This document shows, piece by piece, positions 42,372 through 47,761 of a DNA stretch of 57,225 nucleotides. A program made the translations under genes and the position numbers. Under the pieces are notes generated by a model. That model had not been told where the DNA came from. It saw only the letters and a program-made list of their open reading frames with translations, and did not search any database. Positions within the stretch are counted from its first letter, which is position 1, and the number at the start of each line of letters is the position of its first letter. The stretch comes from an uncultured Gammaproteobacteria bacterium (GTDB lineage Bacteria; Pseudomonadota; Gammaproteobacteria; PS1; Pseudothioglobaceae): assembly GCA_937896195.1 (NCBI GenBank), contig CALBNC010000051.1, forward strand, positions 1 to 57,225, read 5' to 3'.

Positions 42372-42447
42372 GGGGCGTTAGCTCAGTTGGTAGAGCATCG
42401 GACTTTTAATCCGCTGGTCGAGCGTTCAAATCGCTCACGCCCCACCA
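42372..42447 (+). tRNA. tRNA-Lys (anticodon TTT)
   Basis: 76 bases with acceptor GGGGCGT/ACGCCCC, D-arm GCTC/GAGC, anticodon loop CTTTTAA (anticodon TTT) on the stem CGGA/TCCG, and T-arm GAGCG/CGCTC. The CCA end is encoded. Followed by a terminator, so it is a single-gene unit. Confidence 0.97.
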
Positions 42448-42959: not shown

Positions 42960-45149
42960 ATGTCTTTGCCACCTAAAAACCTACATTCTTACCCTAAATT
43001 CTGGCCCCATAAAAAAAGGCTTGTTCCTGCGCCATTACTTCCTATGTCTCGAAAAGAGATGGATGGCTTGGAGTGGGATTGTTGCGATATTATTATCGTT
43101 ACAGGTGATGCATATGTAGATCATCCTAGTTTTGGTATGGCGATTATTGGTCGTTTGCTAGAATCCCAGGGATTTCGAGTAGGGATTATCTCTCAACCTG
43201 ATTGGCATTCTGCAGATGCTTTTCGTCAGCTAGGAAAGCCTAATTTATTTTTCGCTGTTGCATCGGGCAATATGGATTCTATGGTGAATCATTACACTGC
43301 TGAGAAAAGGCCACGTTCAGATGATGCTTACACTGCAGGTGCTATGGCAGGCAAACGCCCTGATCGTGCGACCACTGTTTACACTCAGCGCGCCAAGGAA
43401 GCTTACAAAGGTATTCCTGTCATCATTGGTGGTATTGAAGCCAGTTTAAGGCGTATTGCTCAATATGATCATTGGTCACAAACCATTCGTCGCTCTATCC
43501 TGCCTGATTCTAAAGCTGATTTACTGCTTTTTGGTAATGCTGAGCGCGCTGTGGTTGAGGTTGCACATCGAGTTGCGGCAGGTGAAGATATTAAACAAAT
43601 TACGGACATTCGTGGTACAGCTTTTATGCGCCAAGGAATTCCTGAGGGTTGGACGGTGCTAGATTCAAGTGAAATTGATGCTGACAAGAGTCTAGTTCAC
43701 CCACAAACAGATCCTTATATAGACACATCTGCCAAAGATAAACAGGGTTGTGGCGATAAGAATAATCAGGCTATGCCTATTAAGATTGACCCTAATCAAG
43801 GAGCGGTGCAGGTTATCGATTTTGATCACCGCACTAAAGGACTAAAGAGGGAGGATACTGTTATTCGTCTACCTTCTTTTGAGCAAGTAGCAAAAGATCG
43901 TTATCTGTATGCACATACGTCACGTGTTTTTCATTTAGAAACTAATCCGGGTAATGCGCGTGCTTTGGTACAACGCCATGGTGAGCGGGATGTTTGGTTA
44001 AACCCACCACCAATTCCTTTATCAATGGAAGAGTTTGATAGTGTGTTTGAATTGCCTTATACGCGCAAGCCACATCCTTTTTACGGTGATTTGAAGATTC
44101 CTGCTTATGACATGATTCGTTTTTCGATTAATATCATGCGTGGTTGTTTTGGTGGCTGTACTTTTTGCTCTATTACTGAGCATGAAGGGCGTATTATTCA
44201 AAGTCGTTCAGAGGATTCAGTGATTCGTGAAATCGAAGCAATTCGTGATAATATTGATGATTTTAAAGGTAATATTTCAGATCTTGGTGGCCCGACAGCA
44301 AACATGTATCGCCTTCAATGTAAGGATACAAAAATAGAAGCCGCTTGCCGCCGTCTTTCTTGTGTCTATCCTGGCATTTGCCCAAATCTAGGAACAGACC
44401 ATAAGCCACTAACAAAATTATATCGACGTGCACGAAAGCTAAAAGGCATTAAGCGAGTATTTATTGCCTCAGGCTTGCGCTATGATCTTGCTGTTCGTGA
44501 TCCTGAGTACATCAAAGAGTTGGTTACTCATCATGTTGGTGGCCGATTAAAAATTGCACCTGAGCATACTGAAGATAATACTTTATCAAAAATGATGAAG
44601 CCTGGTATTGGTTCTTATCATCAGTTTAAGAAACTGTTTGATCGCTATTCCAAACAAGCAGGTAAAGAGCAATACCTTATTCCTTATTTTATTTCTTCAC
44701 ACCCCGGAACTAGTGATGAAGATATGCTAAATCTAGCGCTTTGGTTGAAGAGTAATGATTTTAAGCCAGATCAAGTGCAGGCCTTTATTCCTACGCCTAT
44801 GGCGATAGCTTCAGCTATGTATCATACTGAATTAAACCCACTTAAGAAAATTACCCGAGGGTCAGAATCAGTCAAAACCCCACGTAGCGGGCAACAACGA
44901 AAATTGCACAAAGCTTTTTTACGCTACCATGATTCTGAAAATTGGGATGTATTGCGACAGGCTCTTAAGAAAATGGGACGCAGTGATTTAATAGGTGATG
45001 GCGATGAGCATTTAGTACCTTATTCTAGAGCTGGAAATTCGCCAAGATCAAAACCTTTACGAAAAAACAACAATGACTTTCATCATCGTATTTCTGTAAA
45101 AAATAAAAACCAAGGTTTTAACGCCAAACTTTCTAATAAAAAAAAGTGA
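42960..45149 (+). CDS. ygiQ: YgiQ-family radical SAM protein
   Basis: 729-residue member of the YgiQ family. An N-terminal domain ([29 protein letters not shown] style) precedes a radical-SAM core with the cluster motif [12 protein letters not shown] (Cys396, Cys400, Cys403), [11 protein letters not shown], and [10 protein letters not shown]; the end is basic ([15 protein letters not shown]). Function unknown in all bacteria, but widespread. A perfect TATAAT lies at about 42944-42949, only 11 bases before the ATG, so a start nearer or further is possible. No ribosome site precedes the ATG. Confidence 0.93.
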
Positions 45150-45202: not shown

Positions 45203-46474
45203 ATGCCCCACATACCAAAACTAGATCTATTTTTACACGTTACTACGCCTCATCTAGAGCAGCTTGCGCATAGTCTGGGAAAACAAATTGACCTTCAAGA
45301 TAGACACCAGAAGAAGGGCCTTAGAATGCTTTTATGTAACCTATATGTGCATGGCAAAAATAAGGTCGTTGTTTCTCGTAGAATTCAGTCTTTAGGTGGT
45401 GTGAAATATAATCCATTGAACATAGAGTGTGGCGCTATCAATAACTCTTTGGATAAGTTAAAGATTGCAGGATATATTGTACAAGTGATAGGCAATCCTA
45501 GCGAAGGCACAATGACTACCATGGAGTCTACTGATAAGCTTATTCAGTGGTTTAAGGATACTGGTTGGTCGGATAACTCAATTGATAAAACGGTCGGTTC
45601 TTACATATCACTTAGAGAGGCTAGAAAACAAAATGGTCGCACCGTTTATGTTGACTTTAAAGACACCAAGTATTCAAAATGGCTGGGTGAACGAGTAAGG
45701 CAATATGACCAACTTTTAAATGGTTGTAGAATTGCATTATTGAACGATGACGGTAGTGAAAACAAAGTTTTTAAGAAGTTCACCGTTCAAAGAGAATTTA
45801 TTGAGCAACAATCAACTCATGAAAATATGGAATTTGCCTTTGGTGGCAAGATAACAGCGCCATGGACGAATCTTTCATCAAAATTCAAAGAGAATGTGAC
45901 TATTAATGGCGAGCCTACTATTGAGATAGATATAGATGCGACCAACCTTAATGCCATGTACCAAGTAATTACTGGAGCAGCTTATCCTCATAAGGATGAT
46001 CCATATCTTATAACAGTGGATGATGTGGTTGTGCCTATGCATATAGTCAAGAGTTTTACAACTTTTATGCAAAGCAGTAAAACACCTAAAGGTGCTGCTC
46101 ATTCGGTTTTAAACTTTTATAAGAAAAAAGCCTTGGAAGTTAAAAATCCTAAAGAAGAAGATGTTAAAAAATATGATGAGTATATTGAATTTAAAAGAAA
46201 TACGAAGCCGACAGATATAGCTCAAGCTATTTTAGATAAACATTCTTTGGTGATTAGTCACTTCAATAAAGGCAACACTTATGGTGATTTTATTAGCTGT
46301 TGGGGTTCAGATGTTGCTTTTGAAGTGATTATGGAACTTACTAAGAAAGAGATTCCTTGTTTGGTTACTGATGATTCTTTTATTGTTCCAGCGCAACACA
46401 AAGATCTAGTGAATGAAATGAAAAATAGCACGGCTTATGTAGATAGAAGAGACATAAAAGAAGCTTTAAAATAA
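45203..46474 (+). CDS. Unrecognised protein with polymerase-palm-like motifs and a DNA-binding-like N-terminus
   Basis: 423 residues, family not known to me by name. The N-terminal third contains a winged-helix-like segment (about 36-97, KGLRMLLCNLYVHGKNKVVVS and NNSLDKLKIAGYIVQVIG). The C-terminal half resembles the palm of nucleic-acid polymerases: motif A-like EIDIDATNLNAMYQV (Asp243 and Asp245), DPYLI (266-270), a basic helix region, then FISCWGSDVAFEVIMEL and the motif C-like IPCLVTDDSFIVPA (Asp390, Asp391), near a loop style HDSFIVP seen in uncharacterised plasmid and phage proteins of proteobacteria, and in T7-like RNA polymerase (HDSFG). No ribosome site is seen before the ATG. Single-gene unit between ygiQ and an aminotransferase, ended by a strong terminator. 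A replication or transcription role is inference only. Confidence 0.7.
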   Translation: MPHIPKLDLFLHVTTPHLEQLAHSLGKQIDLQDRHQKKGLRMLLCNLYVHGKNKVVVSRRIQSLGGVKYNPLNIECGAINNSLDKLKIAGYIVQVIGNPSEGTMTTMESTDKLIQWFKDTGWSDNSIDKTVGSYISLREARKQNGRTVYVDFKDTKYSKWLGERVRQYDQLLNGCRIALLNDDGSENKVFKKFTVQREFIEQQSTHENMEFAFGGKITAPWTNLSSKFKENVTINGEPTIEIDIDATNLNAMYQVITGAAYPHKDDPYLITVDDVVVPMHIVKSFTTFMQSSKTPKGAAHSVLNFYKKKALEVKNPKEEDVKKYDEYIEFKRNTKPTDIAQAILDKHSLVISHFNKGNTYGDFISCWGSDVAFEVIMELTKKEIPCLVTDDSFIVPAQHKDLVNEMKNSTAYVDRRDIKEALK

Positions 46475-46530: not shown

Positions 46531-46572
46531 AAAAAAACCTCCATAGATATTCATCTATGGAAGTTTTTTTTT
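46531..46572. terminator. Bidirectional terminator between the palm-like gene and the aminotransferase
   Basis: A long stem with TCCATAGAT (46540-46548) pairing with ATCTATGGA (46553-46561) around ATTC, extended by AAC/GTT outside one mismatch, A-run before and T-run after. Works in both directions. Confidence 0.92.
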
Positions 46573-46585
46573 GCTTACTAATGAA

Positions 46586-47761
46586 TTAAATGCTAGCTAA
46601 CTTTTCTACTGCTTGTTTAATGTTATCCATGCTAGTGGCAAATGATAATCTCACGTAGCCTGATGCGCCAAAGGCAGAGCCAGGCACAAGTGCAATATTA
46701 AGCTTTTCTAGGCAATAGGTAGAAAATTCTATATCATCCTTAAGGCCTAGGCGTTTGATCAAGCCTTCAACTCTTGGAAAAGAATAAAAAGCACCTTGGG
46801 ATCTTGGACATTCAACACCATCAATAGCATTTAATGCATTCACAATGTATTCATGACGCTCTTCAAATGCACTAACCATTGTATCAATGATACTTTGATC
46901 GCCATTTAGTGCCTCTAAGGCTGCTGCTTGTGCAATAGAACAAGGATTAGAGGTTGATTGACCTTGAATCTTTTTCATGGCCTTAATGATAGCTTCTGGG
47001 CCTGCACCATAACCAATACGCCAGCCTGTCATGGCGTAACCTTTAGAAACACCGTTAAGAATAATAGTTCGATCTTTTAATTTAGGCTCTGCCATGACAA
47101 TATTAATAAAGTCGTCATTTCCCCAGCGAATATGCTCATAGATGTCATCGGTAATAATAAGTACTTTGGGATAGTTAATCAGTACATCTGCCAAGGCTTG
47201 TAGTTCGTCTTTTGAATAAACTGCACCGGTAGGATTGGAAGGGCTGTTAATAATAAAAAGTTTGGTTTTATCAGTAATGCTTTGCTCTAACTGCTTAGGG
47301 GTAATTTTAAAATCTTGCTCTAAGCCAGTTTCCACCACGATTGGTGTAGCATCAGCCAAAAGCACCATATCAGGGTAGCTCACCCAATAAGGGGAAGGAA
47401 TAATAACTTCATCGCCATTATCAAGTACAGCTTGACACAAATTATAAAAAACCTGCTTACCACCTGAAGATGCCATCACCTGCGTATCTGTATAGTCCAG
47501 ATTATTCTGACGTTTAAATTTATCAATAATAGCTTGTTTTAAAGCGGGCGTACCATCAACTGCAGTGTATCGAGTTTGACCATTGTGGATAGCTTCAATG
47601 GCGGCTTTCTGGATATTAATCGGCGTATCGAAATCTGGTTCACCCGATCCCATTGATACAATTTGAATACCCTGAGACTTTAATTCATTGGCTTTTGCAG
47701 TGACTGCAAGAGTGGCTGAAGGCTTAACTTTTTGAACTCTTTTAGAAAGGAACTCTGGCAT
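46586..47761 (-). CDS. Class I aminotransferase, probable aspartate aminotransferase
   Basis: 391-residue PLP enzyme of the 1b (bacterial AspB-like) branch. Motifs: [35 protein letters not shown], the PLP lysine in [17 protein letters not shown], and [11 protein letters not shown] at the C-terminus with the carboxylate-binding Arg. Most relatives transaminate aspartate or prephenate. Starts 26 bases from the divergent uvrB frame and is convergent with the palm-like gene, with a shared terminator. Confidence 0.92.

Follow-up and report, generated by a model that had tools for sequence, protein, structure and literature searches.

Gene X, an open reading frame of 423 codons in a SUP05/Thioglobaceae bacterium with a 1.42-Mb genome, belongs to a protein family characteristic of small integrative elements located at the 3' ends of tRNA genes, as shown for 18 loci. 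Its product is predicted to combine the palm and fingers of the family A DNA polymerase/single-subunit RNA polymerase superfamily with an N-terminal winged helix. The copy described here is solitary, and the likeliest explanation is that it has been domesticated, its role being changed or its enzymatic activity reduced.

Gene X occupies positions 45203-46474 (+ strand, ATG start) of the window, i.e. the whole analysed stretch of 57,225 nucleotides. It is preceded by ygiQ (42960-45149, +), a conserved neighbour in genomes G008 and G009, and followed by an aminotransferase gene, called aspC here (46586-47761, -), and then uvrB, an order also found in G008, G009 and G016. A hairpin and a subsequent T run, together resembling a terminator, can be read directly from the intergenic sequence between X and aspC (46538-46573). 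Phage and plasmid genes are absent beside gene X, in agreement with the initial annotation, in which it stood alone between ygiQ and an aminotransferase gene. At the composition of the window, a stop-free frame of this length has a chance of about 2e-13. Full-length homologues (58-96% identity) are present in six other Thioglobaceae genomes, and the dN/dS ratio among gene X and these homologues is about 0.05-0.18 (with synonymous sites saturated in the more divergent pairs). The improbable open frame, the full-length homologues and the low dN/dS together show that this is no chance ORF. Relatives of the host's family bear the names 'SUP05 cluster', 'Candidatus Thioglobus' and 'Pseudothioglobus' in the named genome collection.

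The window protein matched nothing in Pfam, NCBIfam or the PDB sequences, and a search of the viral contigs with this protein alone also gave no match. It does match PHROG 4756 (E 4.3e-25, residues 37-405), and relatives were therefore gathered with the phrog_4756 profile and intermediate sequences, which yielded 31 loci from viral contigs, 80 loci kept of 159 from bacterial genomes, plasmid copies and 249 phage records. Each of the 90 aligned members matches PHROG 4756, with next to no matches elsewhere, so the X family and PHROG 4756 are the same family. Its phage members infect Vibrio (phage ICP1 included), Rheinheimera, Aeromonas, Shewanella and Pseudoalteromonas, and further members reside on proteobacterial chromosomes. 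The occurrence of relatives on plasmids and phages, anticipated from the sequence alone, was thus confirmed. Gene X is carried, fragments included, by 17 of 83 Thioglobaceae genomes, compared with 3 of 366 other Gammaproteobacteria genomes.

In PHROGs the function of this family is given as unknown. A bare label 'DNA polymerase' is attached to a few phage entries (Rheinheimera phage Barba31A and Pseudomonas phage vB_PsaM_M1), and nearly all others are annotated as hypothetical proteins; in the literature searched, no paper on the family was found and 'phrog_4756' is nowhere mentioned. None of the 90 members matched the family A DNA polymerase profile PF00476 at E 0.01, one matched the RNA polymerase profile PF00940 (E 0.006; the window protein did not), and the one match to PADLOC defence families (E 0.005) was taken as noise. 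The homologue of phage ICP1_2001_A (ADX89283.1, L270:2703-4187), a hypothetical protein of 494 residues, has HDAL in one motif where others have HDSF. Two paralogues of X occur within one locus in three cases (L109, L137 and L050), and in Pseudodesulfovibrio (L109) they adjoin each other.

Predicted fold and active-site residues

AlphaFold2 returned confident models for the window protein (pLDDT 94.6, pTM 0.90) and for a viral relative, L062 (pLDDT 92.6, pTM 0.90). When the L062 model was compared with the PDB using Foldseek, the matches with an E-value of about 1e-3 or better were family A DNA polymerases and mitochondrial RNA polymerase. In VIA-align comparisons, the window protein was superimposed on yeast mitochondrial RNA polymerase (Z 11.9, 256 aa, 4.7 Å), T7 RNA polymerase (Z 11.5, 257 aa, 4.2 Å), apPol (Z 11.2, 224 aa, 3.6 Å) and Taq (Z 10.9, 236 aa, 3.9 Å), and L062 on mitochondrial RNA polymerase (Z 15.4, 248 aa, 3.4 Å) and apPol (Z 15.3, 244 aa, 4.0 Å). 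A palm-type polymerase fold had been proposed from two acidic clusters, and structure prediction followed by comparison with family A DNA polymerases and T7 RNA polymerase had been suggested as the check. Both groups are resembled, and the confident models, the polymerases among the top structural matches and the conserved motif residues all argue for the predicted palm. Since the RNA and DNA polymerase matches are tied, the fold is silent on the product of X. That the motifs are coincidental and the protein folds into something other than a palm is hardly conceivable: the window protein indeed lacks a Pfam or NCBIfam match, as such a coincidence would allow, but two independent high-confidence models have polymerases as their top structural matches and the motif residues are strictly conserved.

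The N-terminal domain (residues 34-120, positions 45302-45562, +) is winged-helix-like. Its similarities to MarR/MepR and eS10 (Foldseek, E 0.05-0.25) and, with the family profile, to PadR regulators (E 0.1-0.5) are weak but consistent, and they support the winged helix put forward in the initial annotation.

The sequence features reported earlier for the palm, i.e. EIDIDATNLNAMYQ with Asp243 and Asp245, DPY (residues 266-268) and TDDSFIVP with Asp390 and Asp391, are present as described, as is the ORF itself. Outside the SUP05 solitary clade, residue conservation was counted in 110 copies from phages, elements and genomes. Arg216 and Lys283 were found in 110/110 copies and Asp243 in 109/110, and position 279 is occupied by Arg in 107 copies and by Lys in 3. 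Asp391 is present in 109/110 copies and the triplet Asp391-Ser-Phe is similarly conserved, this conservation being partly enforced because the motif served as a search pattern in the collection scans. Four aspartates had been put forward as candidates for the active site; Asp243 (motif A) and Asp391 (motif C) proved to be the conserved pair of the family, and Asp245 and Asp390 are not conserved (residue 245 varies, and relatives nearly always have His at position 390). In profile alignments, Asp391 falls on Asp812 of T7 RNA polymerase (E 4.5e-4) and, weakly, Asp243 on Asp475 of T7 DNA polymerase, both of which are catalytic residues. The fold matches and the motif registers are consistent with Asp243 and Asp391 meeting at one site in the predicted structure.

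Along the window protein (all + strand), these positions lie in (i) GGK, residues 214-216 (45842-45850), which replaces the family's invariant GGR, (ii) motif A, residues 241-253 EIDIDATNLNAMY (45923-45961), (iii) the motif B region, residues 279-293 (46037-46081), with Lys283 kept, Arg279 replaced by Met and Asn291 by Ser, and (iv) motif C, residues 388-395 VTDDSFIV (46364-46387). Family-wide, position 291 is Asn in 80 of 90 members and position 248 is His in 77 of 90, and the consensus of motif C is PVHDSFIV, with DDSF in the window copy.

The resemblance of this second motif to the HDSF loop of T7-type RNA polymerase, noticed in the initial annotation, holds for the whole family, as seen from the consensus and the profile alignment. 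It raises the alternative that X is a miniature T7-type RNA polymerase which transcribes element or phage genes (e.g. late genes) instead of replicating DNA. This alternative would also suit the member matching PF00940, the RNA polymerases heading the structural list of the window protein, and the large X-bearing phages that already own a DNA polymerase. Nevertheless, we regard it as unlikely. Motifs B and C of T7 RNA polymerase are separated by about 173 residues, whereas in X the distance (from 291 to 391) is about 100 residues, which leaves no room for a promoter-specificity loop; moreover, a T7-type N-terminal promoter domain was not found in X, and DNA polymerases score equally in the structural comparison.

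Mobile elements carrying gene X

Among the 80 chromosomal X loci, a tyrosine-integrase-like gene was found within six genes of X in 38 and a serine-recombinase-like gene in 11. Every tRNA 3' end at the X loci was scanned for a second direct copy. Repeats of tRNA 3' ends, 17-57 bp long, were detected at 19 loci, of which 18 are distinct (L042 and L085 represent the same element), and X is bracketed by them in 19/19 cases. The control set, comprising tRNA genes of the window, of loci with solitary or remnant copies and of loci without X, gave a repeat for 0/19 tRNA genes. The bracketed elements span 5.2-13.6 kb, apart from one 2.3-kb remnant, and use tRNA genes for Lys, His, Ser, Pro, Gly, Val, Arg, Thr, Ala and Cys. 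A tyrosine integrase (PF00589 in 10/10 tested) and X are common to all 18 elements, and no other gene is; the remainder is unshared cargo, which includes restriction-modification-like genes. The profile search for homologues and their neighbours, which had been recommended on the basis of the sequence, thereby uncovered a class of tRNA-integrated elements that had not been foreseen. A search for iterons upstream of X gave at most two copies of any 11-mer, no more than expected by chance given about 140 tests. SUP05 elements located at different tRNA genes have a family of small cargo proteins in common (cluster c5; L042:8470-8841 and L044:12552-13178), and an ORF resembling these is located near a solitary X copy (L039:8388-8759).

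The composition of the elements bears on the possibility that X is a repair or defence gene carried as cargo by elements and phages, the window copy being kept for that benefit. The restriction-modification-like genes of the carriers and the retention of the solitary copy under selection are compatible with this, but X is present in every bracketed element whereas other cargo is unshared, and there is no meaningful PADLOC match among the family members, which makes a cargo function quite improbable.

Gene X is also carried by other types of replicons. L053, a viral contig of 9,932 bp with an exact terminal repeat of 127 bp, is a small circular genome encoding capsid, protease, portal, head completion, HNH and large terminase proteins, along with X; neither a tail gene nor a replication gene other than X was recognised in it. 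In this respect L053 resembles a capsid-forming phage satellite. The plasmid-like contig L059 (13,249 bp, 99-bp terminal repeat) encodes a ParA-type ATPase, a resolvase, a RepA-type initiator (PF10134) and X, which weakens the idea that no carrier has a replication gene besides X. X occurs in large tailed phages as well. A separate family A DNA polymerase of 700-850 aa was found above Pfam's cut-off in 7 of the 14 tested X-bearing viral records (phage HNL01 included), in a search that left X itself unmatched by PF00476, and family B polymerase (PF00136) was found in none of the 14. X is therefore not the main polymerase of the records with a family A enzyme, and the idea that it is the only DNA polymerase of its phages was rejected. 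Contig IMGVR_UViG_3300037296_000253 (21,444 bp; L078 and L272) contains three tandem units of about 3.35 kb, one of them of 4.66 kb, each with X and a gene for a 215-aa tyrosine-recombinase-like protein, beside HK97-type head and packaging genes. This arrangement may reflect tandem integration, a concatemer or an assembly artefact.

The solitary copy and its clade

Neither an integrase gene nor an att repeat was found around the window copy. The tRNA gene nearest to it is tRNA-Lys(ttt) (42372-42447, +), which has no att-like second copy in the window, and entry at this gene is unsupported. In sister genomes G002, G026 and G032 the site is empty, with ygiQ adjoining aspC, and X lies beside aspC-uvrB in G000, G008, G009 and G016. 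A tRNA-Asn gene is located beside aspC in G011 (L266) and G021 (L269), and just upstream of ygiQ in G032 (L267), so in these relatives the X site is near a tRNA gene, while none is adjacent to X in the window.

Seven solitary X copies form one clade (support 100/99) nested among element-borne copies, and the pair sister to this clade contains a copy from a SUP05 element. The nesting indicates that the direction was from element to solitary gene. Within the clade, residues that are otherwise invariant or nearly so have changed: Lys216 is found in four copies, Met279 in three, Glu243 in one and Glu283 in one, and in two of the seven, close relatives of the window copy, Asp391 of motif C is lost (Asn or Gly). 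The window copy keeps Asp243, Asp391 and Lys283, and has Lys216 and Met279. In view of these losses, it may no longer polymerise. At the same time, its dN/dS is about 0.10-0.15, and when gene halves were considered separately, values of 0.07-0.18 were obtained in the window's sub-clade (palm half 0.13-0.18), beyond which dS is saturated.

A decaying relic without function would be expected to look similar in some respects, given the loss of the integrase, the changed signature residues and the truncated X copies present in relatives. Such decay is nonetheless very unlikely, because the solitary gene is intact in seven genomes and dN/dS is 0.05-0.18 overall and 0.07-0.18 per half in the window's sub-clade. 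Purifying selection combined with altered signature residues suggests instead that the window copy is probably domesticated and that full polymerase activity is no longer needed. The domesticated cellular copy envisaged in the initial annotation is thus supported by the lack of integrase and att sites, the empty site in sister genomes, the nested solitary clade, the low dN/dS with a constrained palm and the lost signature residues.

Proposed role and comparison with known systems

From the fold and the genomic context we infer an activity for X, and we lean slightly towards its being the replication polymerase (priming or extending) of the elements, with the window copy descending from an element, now solitary and probably domesticated. 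According to this proposal, the integrase would excise the element as a circle, to which X would bind through its winged helix; Asp243, Asp391 and Lys283 would be used for template-directed nucleotide addition, and X would prime or extend DNA replication of the element, as piPolB does in pipolins and the primase in PICMI satellites. The window copy would have descended from such an element by loss of the mobile parts, and its present role could perhaps be DNA binding or, as a guess, interference with incoming related elements. A replication role appears the most economical explanation because X and an integrase are constantly paired, no other gene is shared, the predicted fold is that of a polymerase and a DNA-binding domain is probable. 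The L053 genome, in which X has no recognisable replication gene beside it, speaks for this role. Counting against it, other replication proteins can accompany X (phage family A polymerases, RepA in L059), Asn and His stand family-wide where family A enzymes have the motif B Tyr and the steric-gate Glu, respectively, and iterons are missing upstream of X.

A bolder version, which we consider possible but would not yet favour, is that X represents a third lineage of the PolA/T7 RNA polymerase superfamily, consisting of self-contained initiator-polymerases, each a winged helix joined to a minimal palm, that replicate a new type of two-gene, tRNA-targeted elements and satellites, and that it has been domesticated in SUP05 bacteria and is catalytically dead in some species.

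Among integrative elements, pipolins and casposons have been described as encoding polymerases, which belong to family B, and phage satellites as encoding primases. Elements of this kind are thus already known, and the X lineage in such a role is absent from the literature searched. A family A/RNA-polymerase-like counterpart in which only two genes are shared would bring a further type of polymerase into the mobilome, and a replication role would provide a function for a so far unexplained phage family to which a gene of the model phage ICP1 belongs. Moreover, X may yield a compact polymerase (about 420 residues) of practical use, and the solitary SUP05 clade offers a natural test of the fate of a mobile-element polymerase once it is kept by the host.

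Among single-subunit RNA polymerases (T7 and mitochondrial), the likeness comprises the HDSF-type motif C (found in the family, with DDSF in the window copy), a GGR-Y motif resembling DxxGR and equal structural similarity, whereas X is half the size, has no promoter domain, shows the short motif B-C spacing and has the motif B Tyr replaced. With family A DNA polymerases (Pol I, T7 gp5 and apPol) it shares the predicted palm/fingers fold and motifs A, B and C in register. The element copies appear to combine this fold with the motif A and C aspartates and the motif B Arg/Lys, and the window copy retains both aspartates and the Lys, with Met279 in place of Arg279. Unlike those enzymes, X has no PF00476 match, begins with a winged helix where those have their usual N-terminal domains, has Asn for the motif B Tyr/Phe and His for the steric-gate Glu throughout the family, and reads HDSF rather than HDE in motif C.

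In pipolins, a primer-independent family B polymerase and att sites are the sole common features (PMC7385651). X elements likewise consist of a polymerase gene, a tyrosine recombinase, tRNA att repeats and variable cargo, and this arrangement around the polymerase gene is seen at the 18 element loci and not at the window copy. They differ from pipolins in the enzyme, since X is not a family B polymerase (piPolB) but a family A/RNA-polymerase-like protein of about 420 aa. By analogy, X may prime or perform DNA replication of its element, in the manner of a family-A-type pipolin. PICMI satellites encode AlpA and a DUF3987/DUF5906-type primase and integrate beside fis, and deletion of the primase lowers the circular or concatemeric copy number (PMC10803314). 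Like X elements, these and other phage satellites are small integrative elements of marine origin that pair an integrase with a single replication gene, the part that X would play; X elements differ from PICMIs in using tRNA genes and X in place of the fis site and the primase.
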